Positions 7,866 through 13,660 of a stretch of 64,000 bases of DNA are shown here, one piece after another (within the stretch, counting starts at the first letter, position 1; the number at the start of each line of letters is the position of its first letter). Source of the DNA: Oricola nitratireducens (GTDB lineage Bacteria > Pseudomonadota > Alphaproteobacteria > Rhizobiales > Rhizobiaceae); NCBI RefSeq assembly GCF_014904745.1, contig NZ_JACZCS010000004.1:62001-126000 (forward strand), written 5' to 3'. The notes beneath the pieces are model-generated. The model did no database searches and was not told where the DNA came from. It saw only the letters and a list, made by a program, of their open reading frames with translations. The position numbers and the translations under genes were made by a program.

Positions 7866-7869
7866 GACG

Positions 7870-8481
7870 TCAGCGCCGGTCCGCCAGCATGGCGCGATAG
7901 GAGCGCGTTTGCAGCGCCCCGGCCCGGAGGCCGAGATCGGCGGCGAATGCCTCGATCTTCTCCGCCCAGCCAGCCAGGCTTTCCTCGTCGTCGGTCATGA
8001 TTGCCAGTTCGACGAAATCGCCAAGGCCGGGCACGCGGTCCAGCGTCAGGTGGAAATCGCCGAGAAACCAGATGTCGCGCTGCTTTGAAACGCGGTCGGC
8101 CTCGACGCAACCGAGCGCCGCCAGCATCGCCAGGGCCTTGTCGAAATCCTCCATGTCGGTGGCGATGCATTCGTCGGGCTGAGGTCCCTTGACGAACCAC
8201 AGCACGCGGCCCGACGGCTGCATCGAACGGATCACTTGCTGCTTTCCCAGCGCAGCGAGCCGGCCGTCCGGCCAGTCGAGGAAGACATCGGTCTCGCGAT
8301 TGCCGAGCGTGAAGGGAATGGCGCCATCAGCTTCGATCCGGACGGTGATCTCCGTCAGGTCGTCGACCGCGTATTTGCGCTCGACTTCGTAGCGTCCTTT
8401 GAAATGATCCCCTGGATCGGCGAGCATGCCCTTGCGGGCGAGGGCGGATGCGGGACTGGCTATCATTGTCTTTGCGTTCAT
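7870..8481 (-). CDS. CYTH-domain protein (class IV adenylyl cyclase / inorganic triphosphatase-like)
   Basis: A protein of about 203 residues contains the CYTH signature E-x-E-x-K as EVERK at residues 32-36. Further charged beta strands of the triphosphate tunnel follow (TVRIEADG, RVLWFVKGPQ, KQRDIWFLGDFHLTLDRV, FVELAI). Family members cleave or cyclise triphosphates such as CoaA-linked, thiamine or inorganic triphosphate, or make cAMP; which applies is unknown. Starts at 8427, 8538 or a TTG at 8571 are also possible, because no clear ribosome binding site decides. It lies about 110 bp after the glycan-synthase gene on the same strand and may be its last operon member. Confidence 0.8.
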   Translation of the reverse strand: MNAKTMIASPASALARKGMLADPGDHFKGRYEVERKYAVDDLTEITVRIEADGAIPFTLGNRETDVFLDWPDGRLAALGKQQVIRSMQPSGRVLWFVKGPQPDECIATDMEDFDKALAMLAALGCVEADRVSKQRDIWFLGDFHLTLDRVPGLGDFVELAIMTDDEESLAGWAEKIEAFAADLGLRAGALQTRSYRAMLADRR

Positions 8482-8589
8482 TGCTCGTGCGGTTCGCAGA
8501 ACCGGAGGTGTCTTTGGCCGGAAGCCGGATCGCTGCATCGGCGGTATCCGATATGCAAGGCAAAAGAACAACGGTTATCGAACCGCGCT

Positions 8590-10650
8590 TCAGACGCCTG
8601 TTTTCCTGCCTCCGGCGCTCATGACCTGCAGGGGATTGCCGAAGACCCGGCGGAGCAAGGCGGAGACGGCCAGACGCGGGGCAGCGCGCGGCGCGATCAT
8701 CGGAGACGCTCCGCCGAACAGTCTCGCGACCAGAAGGCGGCGGATTTCTTCCGGGACGGTGACAACCGTCCCCGCGCCCCTGTGATCCCTGAGTCGCCGG
8801 ATGCCGACACGGATCGCGGACCCGTCCGTGCCCGGTCCGGCGACGACGCCGGCGACCGCCAATCCGTCGGGCAGGCGGAACCCGACCACGTGGCCGGATT
8901 TCACGGCCTCACGGTCACTGTTCTGCGAAAACGTGACCAGAGCCTCGCGCACGGACATCTTCTGGACGTGACAGGGCCGGGAGACGCCGTTGTGAAACAG
9001 CGACGCCGGGGTGTCGATCCCGAAATGGACCTCGTCGACATGCGGGCGCGGCAATTCGATGCAGACCAGCATGGCGACGAAGGCGTAGACCATCACGATC
9101 AGGCCCCATGCGATGGAGAAGGCGTCGAGATCGTTGTAGGTGCGCAGAAGGGGCCCGTTCACCATGCCCGTCAGGGTCAGCACGATAATCGCCATGAAAA
9201 ATCCCGCCATCGGGTAGAGTACCTGGACCCGCGAACGGTCCTCGCCCTTCGCCGTCACCTTGAAGGGGCGGCCGAAAGGGGTCGTGATCGCCTGGGCGAT
9301 CGCCAGCGTGATCGGAACGGCGGCGACCATCTGCGACACCTCGGTAAAGAGCGGCAGGCTGCGCCGTTCCGACACCCAGCTGTGAAACACCCACATCCCG
9401 CCGACCATCGGCATGGCGTAGAAGAAAAAGGCGGCGGGTTCCATCAGGATCGCCGGCAGGCCCATGAAGTAATAGAGGATCGGCGCGGCCAGCATCAGCA
9501 GGATGAACGGCCGGCAGAACCAGAACAGCAAGCCGTGAAAATAGTGCACGCGCTGCATCAAGGTGAAGCCGCGGCCGAAAAACGGCCCGTCGCGCAACAG
9601 GGCCACCTGGATCGTGCCGAGGCACCAGCGGCAGCGCTGGGTGATGTATCCGGACAGGCTTTCTGCCGACAGGCCGACACTCAGCCGCTCATTGAGCCAG
9701 CGCGTCTTCAATCCCTTTTGCAGCAGCCGGTAGGTCAGGTGGATGTCCTCGGTCACCGTTTCCTGCGGCATGCCCCCGATGGCGTCGAGCGCGTCCCGGC
9801 GCACAACGCAGGACGTCCCGACGCAGAAGGCGACGCCCCAGGCGTCCTTGGACGGCTGCATGACGTCGAAGAAAATGCGCTGGTCGTCGACCCATGCGTG
9901 GTCTGCCAGGAGATTGTGCTGTATCGGATCGGCGTTGTAATAGAATTGCGGCGTCTGGATAAGGCCGATCGAGCGGTCGACGAACTGGCCGACCGTCCGT
10001 TTCAGAATCTCCCGGCGCGGTGCGAAATCGGCATCGAGTATCAGGATGAAGGGCGCGTCGGTGAGATCGGCGGACACCCTCAGGCCGTTGTTGATATTGC
10101 CGGCCTTGGCGCCTTCATTGCTGTCGCGGGACAAATAGCGCACGCCATGTTCGCCGCAGTAGTCGCGAAGCCAGTCGCGGTTGCCGTCATCCAGCACCCA
10201 GACGTCGAAATTCGCGTAATCGATCGCCTTCGCCGCGAGGATTGTCCGTTCCAGGATCACGAGATCCTCGTTGTAGGTGCAGATGAACACGTCGACCGGC
10301 GGCACCTCGGCCAGTCCGGAGACCGCGCGTTCGCTGGCGTCGGCGGCGGCCGAGTGGTCGCTGCGGCGGAAAAAGAACAGGATCGACAGGATCGTGTAGC
10401 TGATCACCACGACCTCGAAGCCGAAATAGATCCGTGGCCACAATGCGTAGGGCGTCCATTCGAAATCGGGCAACGTCTCGGCAAAGCGGTAGGTTACGTA
10501 GTTGAGCAGCATGACGATCAGCACGCTACCGAAAATGATGCGGTCGCCGGCCTTGCGCTGGTCCAGAAAACTCGCGCAGGCGATGATCAGCGTGATCGCG
10601 ACTGCGCAAAACAGCATCGAATCGGCAAGGGTCAGGATTTCGGGTGACAC
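8590..10650 (-). CDS. Processive GT2 glycan synthase, BgsA/CrdS/BcsA-like
   Basis: The 686-residue membrane protein has three N-terminal membrane helices and a GT2 domain, then a C-terminal block of about six helices and a 130-residue cytoplasmic tail. All processive-synthase motifs are visible: Asp120 in VDVFICTYNED, DDG at 154-156, DAD at 206-208, TED at 300-302 and QRCRW at 338-342. It should polymerise a beta-glucan from a UDP-sugar at the inner membrane. No intact PilZ motif (RxxxR with D/NxSxxG) is seen in the tail. The GTG start overlaps the preceding secreted-protein gene by 19 bp. Bacterial cellulose or curdlan synthases are alternatives to the mixed-linkage BgsA type. Confidence 0.87.
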   Translation of the reverse strand: MSPEILTLADSMLFCAVAITLIIACASFLDQRKAGDRIIFGSVLIVMLLNYVTYRFAETLPDFEWTPYALWPRIYFGFEVVVISYTILSILFFFRRSDHSAAADASERAVSGLAEVPPVDVFICTYNEDLVILERTILAAKAIDYANFDVWVLDDGNRDWLRDYCGEHGVRYLSRDSNEGAKAGNINNGLRVSADLTDAPFILILDADFAPRREILKRTVGQFVDRSIGLIQTPQFYYNADPIQHNLLADHAWVDDQRIFFDVMQPSKDAWGVAFCVGTSCVVRRDALDAIGGMPQETVTEDIHLTYRLLQKGLKTRWLNERLSVGLSAESLSGYITQRCRWCLGTIQVALLRDGPFFGRGFTLMQRVHYFHGLLFWFCRPFILLMLAAPILYYFMGLPAILMEPAAFFFYAMPMVGGMWVFHSWVSERRSLPLFTEVSQMVAAVPITLAIAQAITTPFGRPFKVTAKGEDRSRVQVLYPMAGFFMAIIVLTLTGMVNGPLLRTYNDLDAFSIAWGLIVMVYAFVAMLVCIELPRPHVDEVHFGIDTPASLFHNGVSRPCHVQKMSVREALVTFSQNSDREAVKSGHVVGFRLPDGLAVAGVVAGPGTDGSAIRVGIRRLRDHRGAGTVVTVPEEIRRLLVARLFGGASPMIAPRAAPRLAVSALLRRVFGNPLQVMSAGGRKTGV

Positions 10651-11960
10651 TGCTTGTTCCAGTCAAGTCGTTCGGCTTCCATGCCGCCGTTGAAGGGGTT
10701 CCATCGTGTCGCTGCCAGGATCGCCCAGGCGGTGGCGGCAATATGGGGCAGACGGTAATATTTGAAATCGCCCGAATCGGACCCCGGTCCGATCTTGAGG
10801 CCGGTCGTGATCTCTTCCTTGACGGTGGCATAGACCAGGCCGCCGGGACTCATCTGCTCCCGCATGGTCGCAAATAGCGGCGCGGCCTTTTCCTGCGGCC
10901 CGACCAGGCGGTAGATGAGCGCGGCCTGGGCCGTCCCCTCCAGCCAGATGCCGTCGCGGTCGTCATTGAAATCGAAGCCGCCGGGCACGCCATGATTGCG
11001 CTCGGTCCAGGACATCAGCTTGTCGGCTTTGCCGTCCTGTCCGGGAATCGCGATAAGCGGCCACAACAGCGCGTCGAGACCCGATGTCTCGGCGTTCGGT
11101 CGGTCGCTACCGGGAACCGTGCCGACATAGTAGCGTCCGGACGCGGCGTCCCACATCTTCGCTATCAGGGCCTGCGCGCGTCCGGCGGCTGTCTCCCACA
11201 GTTCGCGCGGCTCGATACGGTCGAGCCAGAGATTGGCCGCGGCGACGTCGACATTGTGCTCTGTCGATTTCCACGTGACGCCCTCGGGGGTGGGTTCATG
11301 GCCGAAAAAGCCGCCGTAATAGCCGCTGCCGGACGGGTCGGCGGTGCTGGCGTCGACCCAGCGCATGATCGCGCGGGCGGAATCGAGATAGGCCCCGGTG
11401 CCGGTCGCCTCGTAGGCCGTCAGGAGCGCCAGCGCGCCCCAGGCGGTGCTGCCGGTCGCCGAGCCGACCTGGTAGCCGTCCTCGACCCAGAGATTGCGCG
11501 CCGCGTCCCAGTAGCCGGGCAATTCGACCGCCTCTCCGGCCGGTGCGGTGGCGCCGGACCGGTAGGCGTTGCGCAGCCGGCCGTCGTGGTAGAAGCGGTC
11601 GGACTGCAACGCGATCACCAGCGCGTCGGCAACGCGCTTCGCCTCATCCGTGCGGTCGCAGGCGACAAGCCCCATCAGGGCGAGCGCGTTGTCATAGGTG
11701 AATGCCGTGTTTTCGAGCGCCGGATGCAGCGCGGACGCGCCGTTCGCCGGTTCGTAGCTGCGCAGGAAGACCGGGCCGTCCTTCGGATCGGCCATCTGCG
11801 CGAGCAGCCCGCGGCAGGCATGGCAGGCGAGAGAGACGTTGTCCGCGTCGCGTTCCGCCGCCGTCGCGGAGGTGGCGATCACCGCGGTGACGATTGCGGC
11901 CATCCAGCCCTGCCGCACCGTTCTGGCGATGCCCTGTCCGGGCCGGGGGAGGCTGGCCAC
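10632..11960 (-). CDS. Secreted alpha/alpha-barrel protein of the glycan locus (glycosidase-like)
   Basis: The 442-residue product starts at GTG with a GAGGAGA ribosome binding site. A basic N-terminus and hydrophobic segment (GWMAAIVTAVIATSATAA) form a signal peptide. The mature protein begins near a CHAC cysteine pair. It then shows repeated helix pairs with aromatic/glycine turns (STAWGALALLTAYEATG, SGYYGGFFGHEP, WLEGTAQAALIYRL, AATAWAILAATRWNPF) like a six-hairpin glycosidase toroid. A role in trimming or releasing the nascent polysaccharide, as GH8 BcsZ does for cellulose, is an inference. The catalytic acids are not identified. It lies 11 bp after the HlyD-type gene and overlaps the synthase gene. 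Confidence 0.6.
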   Translation of the reverse strand: MASLPRPGQGIARTVRQGWMAAIVTAVIATSATAAERDADNVSLACHACRGLLAQMADPKDGPVFLRSYEPANGASALHPALENTAFTYDNALALMGLVACDRTDEAKRVADALVIALQSDRFYHDGRLRNAYRSGATAPAGEAVELPGYWDAARNLWVEDGYQVGSATGSTAWGALALLTAYEATGTGAYLDSARAIMRWVDASTADPSGSGYYGGFFGHEPTPEGVTWKSTEHNVDVAAANLWLDRIEPRELWETAAGRAQALIAKMWDAASGRYYVGTVPGSDRPNAETSGLDALLWPLIAIPGQDGKADKLMSWTERNHGVPGGFDFNDDRDGIWLEGTAQAALIYRLVGPQEKAAPLFATMREQMSPGGLVYATVKEEITTGLKIGPGSDSGDFKYYRLPHIAATAWAILAATRWNPFNGGMEAERLDWNKQCHPKS

Positions 11961-11971
11961 GGGCTGTCTCC

Positions 11972-13363
11972 TCAGTCCGTTGCGGTCGTTGCCGGCGGGA
12001 ACTCCCTGCCGGGGCGCGCGACGGTGTTGGCGGCCTTCGACAGTTCGGGCTCCTTTACCTCCGCATAGGCGCGGCTGACGGCGAAGGAGTAGTAGCGGCC
12101 GAGCTTGGCGACCAGCGGCTCGCCGAGCGAGACGACAACGTCCTCGCCGACGTGGCAGCCGAAGAAGCGGTCGTTTTCGGACGTGGCGCCGGTTTGATCC
12201 GAGGCGTCTTCCGGGTCCATCTTGAGGATCACATAGACCTCGTGCGGATCGGCTTCGGGCAGGCGTTCGTAATAGCGGTCGTCGCTTCCGGAATCGAAGA
12301 AGCGGACGATCTTCTGGATATGGGCGCTGCGCTTCTGGCCGAGGCTCTTGATGTTGACCATCGCGGGCGTCCCGATATCGAGGCTTGCCACGTCGCGGCC
12401 CGGATAGACGGCGATCACGAAGGATTCGTCGCAGTCGAGGGACCGCGCCAGCGGCTGGCCCTGGACGAGGAAGTCGCCCCGCGAGGCATCGACACTGATG
12501 ATCTGGCCAAAATGGCGGGCGACCGCGTCTCCTTCGCCGGCCTCGCCGGAGCGTTTCTCCTCATGGGCCATCACGTCGCCGAGTTCGCTCTTGCGTTGGC
12601 TGATTTGTTCGACTTCCGCTTCAAGTTCAGCGATTTCGGCGGCAAGGTCTTTCTTTTGCAGTTCCAGCGTGGCGAGATTTCCGGCAACGGAACTGCTGGT
12701 GTAGATGCCGTCCGATATGAGCGTGCGGATGACGGTCTGACGGCGCAGGTCGCTTTCGGCCGCCGCGAGTTCGTATTGCGCGGAATCCCGCTTCTGGCGA
12801 AGCGGTTCAAGGCTCGTCTTGGAAATCACGCCCTTTTTCACCAGTTCGTAGCGCTGCTCCAGCAGGGCTTGCTGCTCGGCGAGGCGAGCCCGGTAGGAAC
12901 TCGCCATTGCATCCGCATTCGTGATCACCGCCTGCAATTCGTCGAGGACGCCCTGCTTCATCTCGGTAATCTGGCCTTCGAGCAACTTCAGCCGGGCGCG
13001 GCGCTGCTGGAGTGAATCCATGCTCTTGCGCAGCCGTTCATCCAGATCGATGGAATCCAGCCGCAGCCCGACAAGCGAGGTTTCGTCAAGGTTCGGATTG
13101 GAAATCGAAGCGGTCACTTCGCCCGGGCTGACGACCTGACCGACCTGCAGCGATATATCGTTGACGCGGCCGTAAATCGGCGACGTGATGACCTGGACCG
13201 GCGCATTGATCTGCGCGCGCTTGGAAACGATGAAGAACTGGTTCGGCAACATGGCGAGCGCCATGATGAACAAGAGGGTCAGCGCGAAAATATAACCGAA
13301 AATCCTGCTCGTTCGGAGAATGGCCAGATCGCGGGTATTCCAGACAGAAGAGTGCTCGGACAT
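11972..13363 (-). CDS. HlyD-type membrane fusion protein of the glycan locus (BgsB-like)
   Basis: This 463-residue protein has a short cytoplasmic N-terminus and one membrane helix (residues 22-42). A lipoyl/barrel-sandwich half follows (QVITSPIYGRVNDISLQVGQVVSPGE), then a long coiled coil (about residues 100-270) and the second barrel half (GQIISVDASRGDFLVQGQPL). These are features of HlyD/EmrA periplasmic adaptors. It starts with an AGAGGA ribosome binding site. In the rhizobial mixed-linkage beta-glucan locus a similar adaptor (BgsB) accompanies the synthase BgsA, which is the basis for the comparison. It is the first gene of the leftward cluster. Confidence 0.82.
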   Translation of the reverse strand: MSEHSSVWNTRDLAILRTSRIFGYIFALTLLFIMALAMLPNQFFIVSKRAQINAPVQVITSPIYGRVNDISLQVGQVVSPGEVTASISNPNLDETSLVGLRLDSIDLDERLRKSMDSLQQRRARLKLLEGQITEMKQGVLDELQAVITNADAMASSYRARLAEQQALLEQRYELVKKGVISKTSLEPLRQKRDSAQYELAAAESDLRRQTVIRTLISDGIYTSSSVAGNLATLELQKKDLAAEIAELEAEVEQISQRKSELGDVMAHEEKRSGEAGEGDAVARHFGQIISVDASRGDFLVQGQPLARSLDCDESFVIAVYPGRDVASLDIGTPAMVNIKSLGQKRSAHIQKIVRFFDSGSDDRYYERLPEADPHEVYVILKMDPEDASDQTGATSENDRFFGCHVGEDVVVSLGEPLVAKLGRYYSFAVSRAYAEVKEPELSKAANTVARPGREFPPATTATD

Positions 13364-13400
13364 TCCTCTTCTTTCCCTTTCTGCGCGCTACACGCCTGCT

Positions 13401-13429
13401 CTCGCCAGTTCGTCATAAACTGACGCGAG
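13401..13429 (-). promoter_or_regulatory. Hairpin in the 5' leader of the glycan-synthase operon
   Basis: CTCGC-CAGTT pairs with AACTG-GCGAG around a 7-base loop, with a 2-base bulge. The hairpin lies 38-66 bp before the ATG of the HlyD-type gene. It would be in the 5' untranslated region if transcription starts further right. No known riboswitch class is recognised. Confidence 0.4.
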
Positions 13430-13574
13430 CGGACCACACCTCCCGATTCAGATTGGCTAATTTCGATATTAATCGATTGTTATTACGGGCGATGTTGCAC
13501 TGCAACGAAGCCGAGTTCAAGGCGTCTTATCCGGCCGCATGCGATATTTTACATCGGCCGGAAGGCGTAGGGAT

Positions 13575-13602
13575 AAGCCAAAAGGCGGTGCTTCCCGCCT
13601 TT
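13575..13602 (-). terminator. Intrinsic terminator of the CorC/CNNM-like gene
   Basis: A perfect 8-bp stem (AAAGGCGG / CCGCCTTT) with a six-base loop at 13581-13602 is followed on the minus strand by a short T stretch. It lies 59 bp past the stop of the CorC-like gene. Confidence 0.65.
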
Positions 13603-13660
13603 CCGTTCGAGAATTTAGCCGGAACCGAGAGCGACAGTGGCCGGGTGGCGCGGACATGCC

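Follow-up and report, generated by a model that had tools for sequence, protein, structure and literature searches.

A probable curdlan-type crdA-crdC-crdS operon beside a class IV adenylyl cyclase-type gene in Oricola nitratireducens

Genes at the locus

The DNA analysed here is a 64,000-nt stretch of the Oricola nitratireducens genome (GCF_014904745.1, NZ_JACZCS010000004.1:62,001-126,000), hereafter the window, and all positions count from its first letter. Four open reading frames (ORFs) on the minus strand were found where an earlier note had placed them. In the order of transcription they encode a HlyD-type adaptor, a barrel protein, a GT2 synthase and a CYTH protein (Table 1). We hold with good confidence that the first three are a curdlan-type operon, crdA-crdC-crdS, which arrived in a variable interval between bolA and corC beside a cyclase gene. 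The operon belongs to the known curdlan kind with its genes reordered, as the order is A-C-S and not A-S-C. The three genes had been described as abutting or overlapping, and the ORFs confirm it: the spacer between the adaptor and the barrel genes is 11 bp, and the barrel and synthase genes overlap by 19 bp. Pfam matches were obtained for the adaptor (HlyD_3, 2.8e-11), the synthase (GT2 families, down to 6.9e-21) and the CYTH protein (3.4e-20). The mechanical ORF of the CYTH gene (7870-8571) has an over-called start. Two same-genus orthologues start about 20 residues ahead of the HF motif, so that the start is probably near 8466-8481. The gap from the stop codon of the synthase gene would then be about 108-123 bp.

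Table 1. Features of the locus and related loci, with the evidence for each
Feature	Position	Strand	Evidence
crdA-like, HlyD-type periplasmic adaptor, 463 amino acids, operon gene 1	11972-13363	minus	ORF, Pfam, BLAST
crdC, secreted (alpha/alpha)6-barrel glycosidase-like protein (predicted), 442 amino acids	10632-11960	minus	BLAST, primers, alignment, AlphaFold2 fold
crdS, processive GT2 curdlan-type beta-glucan synthase (predicted), 686 amino acids	8590-10650	minus	motifs, tree, linkage residues, model fit to BcsA
CrdS C-terminal tail, about residues 537-686	8590-9042	minus	secondary structure, BcsA alignment, Pfam, motif counts
CYTH gene, class IV adenylyl cyclase-type, judged outside the operon	7870-8481	minus	Pfam, 3n0y identity, signature, synteny
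Lone-CrdC loci: L030, L045, L048, L049, L054, L056, L059-L061, L063-L065, L067-L069, L071, L074, L076, L078, L084-L086, L090, L091

Identity of the barrel protein as CrdC

Relatives of the locus were reached by a tblastn search of the synthase against plasmid records, which gave loci with an adjoining gene of unknown function. By BLAST, the barrel protein is 52.7% identical over 408 amino acids to gene C of an Agrobacterium plasmid locus with the order A-S-C. It is 43-45% identical to the genes that lie between the adaptor and the synthase (A-C-S) on Phyllobacterium and Nitrobacter plasmids. The quantitative PCR primers published for crdC give a product of 248 bp, according to the portion of PMC4327974 available to us. 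In the Agrobacterium locus L008 the best matches of this primer pair both fall within gene C, exactly 248 bp apart, with 6/20 and 4/20 mismatches, and likewise in the near-copy L032. The peptides encoded at the primer sites, FGQDAQ and IDSELW, are 76 residues apart, which is the family's own spacing. A match with six mismatches is no evidence when taken alone; it is the exact 248-bp spacing together with the encoded peptides that ties gene C to the published crdC. For crdA, the primer at its start matches the beginning of gene A with 2/18 mismatches. With one mismatch allowed, the crdC primer was found in none of 394 genomes. Judged by its sequence, then, the barrel protein is the CrdC component of the known operon for curdlan, crdASC, and not a new addition to the locus as had first been thought.

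In the literature, crdA, crdS and crdC correspond to AGRO_1847-1849, and the sections seen of PMC3293034 name crdA and crdC only as the hypothetical proteins Atu3057 and Atu3055. The excerpt of PMC9495663 gives the operon as crdA-crdC-crdS, and that of PMC10819609 (2023) calls the function of CrdC unknown.

The adaptor itself is 25.7% identical over 412 amino acids to Agrobacterium gene A (E 3e-25) and 24.7% identical over 312 amino acids to Sinorhizobium meliloti BgsB (E 8e-11). Identities of 49-54% were seen with the genes in the same position in the clade of the window synthase (the window clade).

A scan of a genome collection with the barrel alignment gave 482 encoding stretches, of which we retained the best 80, 64 of them with full 10-kb flanks. 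Around these best 80 CrdC genes the order is A-C-S in 45 loci, A-S-C in nine and C-S in two, the last on cut contigs, and CrdC stands alone in 24. A synthase thus adjoins the CrdC gene in 56 of the 80, and the barrel gene is conserved beside the synthase in relatives, a point on which the earlier note could have failed. The order A-C-S is common, with examples from Rhizobium, Cupriavidus, Burkholderia and Methylobacterium among others. In the family of the window organism crdC is rare: 11 of 394 sampled genomes carry it, the window's included, and within the genus one of six.

The 24 CrdC-family genes without CrdA or CrdS in the stretch are from Azospirillum, Nitrospirillum and others, and three of these stretches are cut. 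Their neighbourhoods gave no nameable common partner, as clustering was swamped by spurious ORFs. Six ORFs near lone CrdC genes were scanned and proved to be two chemoreceptors, one cyclophilin and three without a match, one of which is the CrdC ORF itself. Two lone-CrdC genes lie near chemoreceptor genes.

Fold and possible activity of CrdC

The N-terminal helix of CrdC (residues 12-29) was read by eye as a signal peptide. Window CrdC gave no significant match to Pfam or NCBIfam. When the CrdC family was scanned with Pfam as an alignment of 41 rows, weak matches to barrel enzymes appeared, GH127-type in eight rows (best E 0.00098), GH76 matches in two and a GH8 match in one (E 0.0025); these stood among unrelated matches in a table without cut-offs. 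The 41 rows are the window protein and proteins from 40 of the 80 loci, with 17 of the 24 lone-CrdC loci included; L024 and L063 were left out because of a stop inside the tblastn range. A sequence search of solved structures with CrdC returned weak matches only, mannanases and epimerases among them.

The AlphaFold2 model built on the 41 sequences had a mean predicted local distance difference test (pLDDT) score of 89.8. With VIA-align the model superposes on dextran dextrinase 9ju0 with Z 31.4 and a root-mean-square deviation (rmsd) of 3.2 over 339 aligned residues. The methylmannose polysaccharide hydrolase 7qsj follows with a Foldseek E of 1.7e-9 and Z 31.3, rmsd 2.8 and 309 aligned residues. 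Glycosidase 5z3a (Z 31.2), cellobiose 2-epimerases (Z 28.6-30.6) and glucoamylase 1lf6 (Z 29.9) are close behind, and the Pseudomonas putida endo-1,4-glucanase 4q2b is among the Foldseek matches with E 7.2e-06. The model therefore confidently predicts a glycosidase-like (alpha/alpha)6 toroid for CrdC, and the alpha/alpha-barrel guessed at from the sequence agrees with it. The fold is clear but the enzyme class is not, since the top structural matches are tied and epimerases are among them.

Across the 41-sequence alignment 59 columns show no variation, and at least 90% of the sequences retain each of ten acids: D90, D121, E160, D161, E234, D238, D296, D336, E341 and D398. In an (alpha/alpha)6 fold, the segments just ahead of the inner helices form the active-site end. 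In CrdC they make up 216 of 404 residues and hold 43 of the 59 invariant columns and nine of the ten acids. This clustering at the acidic and aromatic end of CrdC is an enrichment and not proof. Lone-CrdC rows (17) and the remaining rows (24) retain the acids alike, bar one Glu in place of D398. The pattern of the acids makes CrdC, in our view, more probably an enzyme than a passive scaffold.

Probable curdlan-type identity of the synthase

CrdS carries the DDG, DAD, TED, QRCRW and FKVTAK motifs of processive GT2 enzymes. It is 45% identical to the Agrobacterium plasmid copy. The glucan linkage was addressed with 17 residues of AtumCrdS numbered in the part of PMC6821405 at hand, which were placed on six Agrobacterium-type synthases. 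All 17 fit the six synthases with one offset per sequence, an offset that was allowed because the ORF starts in the analysis had been extended. Seven of the CrdS residues are described in the same excerpt as linked to 1,3-glucan and differentially conserved. Window CrdS keeps six of these seven (Q237, Q259, K270, H374, W422 and E439). In contrast, S. meliloti BgsA keeps two of the seven. Of five cellulose-type sequences from relatives, four keep E439, and none of the other six residues is kept in any.

A FastTree phylogeny of 74 synthases was made after 18 of 92 rows had been removed, which were cut at the end of a locus or were duplicates. All 61 synthases that adjoin a CrdC gene form one clade with a support of 0.959. 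The other 13, including BgsA and the five cellulose-type sequences, fall outside that clade; the placement of BgsA has a support of 0.16 only. As far as sequence can tell, the window synthase groups with the curdlan synthases and not with BgsA.

The locus had originally been likened to both rhizobial bgsAB and curdlan loci. It is indeed a beta-glucan locus of this broad kind. S. meliloti bgsBA also combines a HlyD adaptor with a GT2 synthase that lacks PilZ motifs, and R656 of BgsA corresponds to R668 of window CrdS. Membership in bgsBA was nevertheless rejected on the tree, the identity of about 37% to BgsA, the linkage residues and the absence in the window of R599 and H615 of BgsA. In addition, no CrdC gene lies beside bgsBA in the stretch examined (L009).

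The AlphaFold2 model of CrdS (pLDDT 88.0) superposes over nearly its whole length on c-di-GMP-bound Escherichia coli BcsA (9fmz), with Z 36.4, rmsd 3.0 and 613 aligned residues. The GT2 fold and the BcsA-like architecture would also suit a plain cellulose synthase (bcs) locus. We give that reading hardly any credence. CrdS scored 343 bits with the CelA model, well below the cut-off of 699, and the cellulose-type linkage residues are absent; cellulose synthase was rejected on these two grounds. Moreover, the four genes scanned include no BcsB-like gene and no GH8 that Pfam recognises, and a HlyD adaptor is present instead. A standard bcs set making plain cellulose, which the earlier note had named as a result that would count against it, is thus not supported.

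The C-terminal tail and c-di-GMP

In the CrdS model six strands at 543-622, followed by helices, take the position of PilZ past the last membrane helix. The BcsA alignments of the whole-synthase model reach CrdS residue 669-686, that with 9fmz ending at 669. Eight synthase tails were scanned with Pfam PilZ. Matches were obtained for two Cupriavidus tails (5e-9 and 4.8e-14) and for a second GT2 synthase of the same genome as the window (1.5e-6), and an Azospirillum tail was barely below the cut-off (4.6e-4, 20.9 vs 22.5 bits). The tails of the window, of a second window-clade member, of Agrobacterium and of BgsA gave no match.

The two cyclic di-GMP (c-di-GMP) motifs, RxxxR and (D/N)x(S/A)xxG, were then counted. 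Both are found in all 29 Cupriavidus/Burkholderia-type tails, in five of the seven of the group without CrdC and in four of the five cellulose-type tails. The two do not occur together in any of the 15 window-clade, 13 Agrobacterium-type and four Nitrobacter/Methylobacterium tails or in the one BgsA tail. Single motif matches, in four window-clade, three Agrobacterium-type and one Nitrobacter/Methylobacterium tails, come from a loose pattern search, and in three window-clade examples inspected by eye the (D/N)x(S/A)xxG-like match lies outside the place of the motif. Pfam and motif inspection thus both agree with the first impression of a tail without a PilZ motif.

BgsA offers a second type of site. 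R599 and H615 are needed for c-di-GMP binding and R656 is needed for activity, as stated in the portion of PMC5567048 seen; the BgsA numbering was fixed by ten of ten published residues. The columns of R599 and H615 are I613 and T628 in CrdS, where the tail alignment is weak. R656 equals R668 in CrdS, and 20 of the 21 aligned sequences have it. Because neither motif is present in the CrdS tail, any c-di-GMP control should not be able to run through a standard PilZ site. With R599 and H615 absent as well, regulation through either known site is unlikely. Control of CrdS by c-di-GMP might still act through another site.

The second GT2 synthase of the same genome (L109, G000:C22:42824-44413) lies outside the window and is 40% identical. 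It stands behind another HlyD-type gene. In the tree it falls with Azospirillum genes, and its tail retains the two c-di-GMP motifs. No second CrdC gene was found in this genome.

Likely product of the operon

The window shares with crdASC of Agrobacterium (ATCC 31749; Atu3057-3055 in C58) three gene families that are adjacent on one strand, with the closest likeness in CrdC (53%) and CrdS. Taken with the motifs and the linkage residues, this homology makes it most likely that the operon serves to produce and export curdlan, a gel of beta-1,3-glucan. CrdS would polymerise UDP-glucose into a linear beta-1,3-glucan and thread it through its own membrane channel. CrdA would probably conduct the chain across the periplasm. 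CrdC, once exported, most likely would bind the glucan and cut or trim it in the periplasm. BcsZ, a GH8 enzyme, acts in this way on cellulose, and GH8 also has the (alpha/alpha)6 fold. Unlike BcsZ, window CrdC has no Pfam glycoside hydrolase match.

Several points weigh against this reading or set the locus apart from that of Agrobacterium. The likeness of CrdA to the Agrobacterium protein is modest, about 26%. The match to the ATCC 31749 genes comes from primers, residue numbers and Agrobacterium relatives, and the primers do not all agree: in L036 the second crdC primer alone places in gene C, and the crdS and internal crdA primers, with 5-8 mismatches, place nowhere sensible. The catalytic residues of CrdC are predicted only, and a binding-only role is possible for the modelled protein. 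Within the synthase, S83, M305, F421, H442 and R514 of Agrobacterium CrdS are replaced by V, I, M, Q and L. Position 442 is the one linkage residue that is lost, and Q is also found there in all 29 Cupriavidus/Burkholderia-type sequences. The synthase tails of the window clade and of Agrobacterium do not align past residue ~582. Finally, we know of no product for any A-C-S locus, the window clade included. The last three points could mean that the synthase makes another linear glucan, mixed-linkage or some other beta-glucan, despite its descent from curdlan synthases. We regard this as unlikely, as six of the seven linkage residues are kept in the window against two in BgsA, the tree puts the window among the CrdC-bearing synthases and the c-di-GMP-binding R599 and H615 of BgsA are absent.

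The CYTH gene as a probable neighbour by insertion

The CYTH protein is 45% identical (79/175) to 3n0y, a class IV adenylyl cyclase of solved structure, and like CyaB (3n0y, 2fjt) it carries the HFxxxxExExK signature, at residues 56-66 of the mechanical ORF (H56, F57, E62, E64 and K66). This signature is absent from all other CYTH enzymes, according to the part of PMC8233210 available. Unlike CyaB, the protein falls below the cut-off of TIGR00318 (the NCBIfam equivalog for cyaB), with 44.2 bits against 57.95. Because of this score the assignment stops at a predicted class IV adenylyl cyclase-type protein.

The earlier note had raised a possible link of the CYTH gene to the set, by which a CYTH cyclase or phosphatase would be a nucleotide partner of the synthase in a bgsAB-like locus. 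The same strand, the gap of about 108 bp and the cyclase signature speak for such a link. The comparative evidence makes it very improbable. With the window protein as query, a CYTH relative was found at E 1e-4 in none of the 80 fetched CrdC stretches (the best 80 of 482, of which 64 have full 10-kb flanks). The Pfam model finds some CYTH gene in 13 of 14 window-clade genomes, none of them inside the crd range; three matches whose coordinates overlap numerically are on contigs that differ in length. A weak hairpin that resembles a terminator and has a T-rich tail lies directly after the crdS stop, at 8586-8571, though such patterns are no commoner in the stretch than expected by chance (3 found vs 4.8 expected).

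Synteny in the family points the same way. The blocks cobT-cobS-dnaJ-bolA and corC-aroB-aroK are conserved. In five genomes (G001, G003, G008, G024 and G029) bolA is directly followed by corC, without CYTH or crd genes. Two genomes of the same genus, G002 and G004, have a CYTH gene but no crd genes between bolA and corC. A third, G005, has CYTH next to corC and on the opposite strand, again without crd genes, on a contig that ends just past CYTH and leaves bolA outside the view. The window is alone among the nine genomes compared in having crd genes in this interval. On this comparison, the simplest reading is that the bolA-corC interval is variable and that the crd genes arrived next to an older cyclase gene. 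As a conserved operon partner the CYTH gene is refuted by the 80-locus, 14-genome and same-genus comparisons. It appears, from synteny, to be unrelated to the operon and a neighbour by accident of insertion. The G+C contents of crdA (61.4%), crdC (67.7%) and crdS (63.3%) against 64.7% for the window show nothing clear, and a recent foreign origin judged from base composition was dropped.

The variable interval (7866-13660 in the window; L098-L100) contains small CxxCH cytochrome c-like proteins, as read by eye from the translations, and in L098 a dienelactone hydrolase-like ORF, read likewise. In G005, which has its cyclase copy at the end of C18, another contig carries a cyclase-like fragment (L097, G005:C21:9331-9492; 57% over 54 residues, open frame with one stop).

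Implications for the curdlan-type family

A further proposal, to which we give rather less than even credence, has two parts. CrdC would be active in the periplasm as an (alpha/alpha)6 hydrolase of beta-1,3-glucan, from a family without a Pfam or NCBIfam entry for the window protein, and would be needed to edit nascent curdlan and also used alone in other bacteria (24 of the 80 loci). The tails of the curdlan synthases would be derived from PilZ, an intact c-di-GMP receptor in Betaproteobacteria that in rhizobial lines such as that of the window would have lost its motifs and might have been re-targeted. The portions seen of PMC4327974, PMC10819609, PMC3293034, PMC9495663, PMC6821405, PMC10374906 and PMC4018554 mention neither a fold of CrdC nor a PilZ tail of a curdlan synthase. 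We claim neither the fold nor the PilZ-type tail as new to print.

The analysis removes the supposed new partner of the synthase, and the unexplained barrel gene can now be named. The role of CrdC becomes a testable question, as the protein has a predicted fold, a conserved end and defined residues for mutagenesis. The split between PilZ-intact and motif-less tails inside one curdlan-type family is a natural experiment on the gain or loss of c-di-GMP control of beta-glucan synthases.

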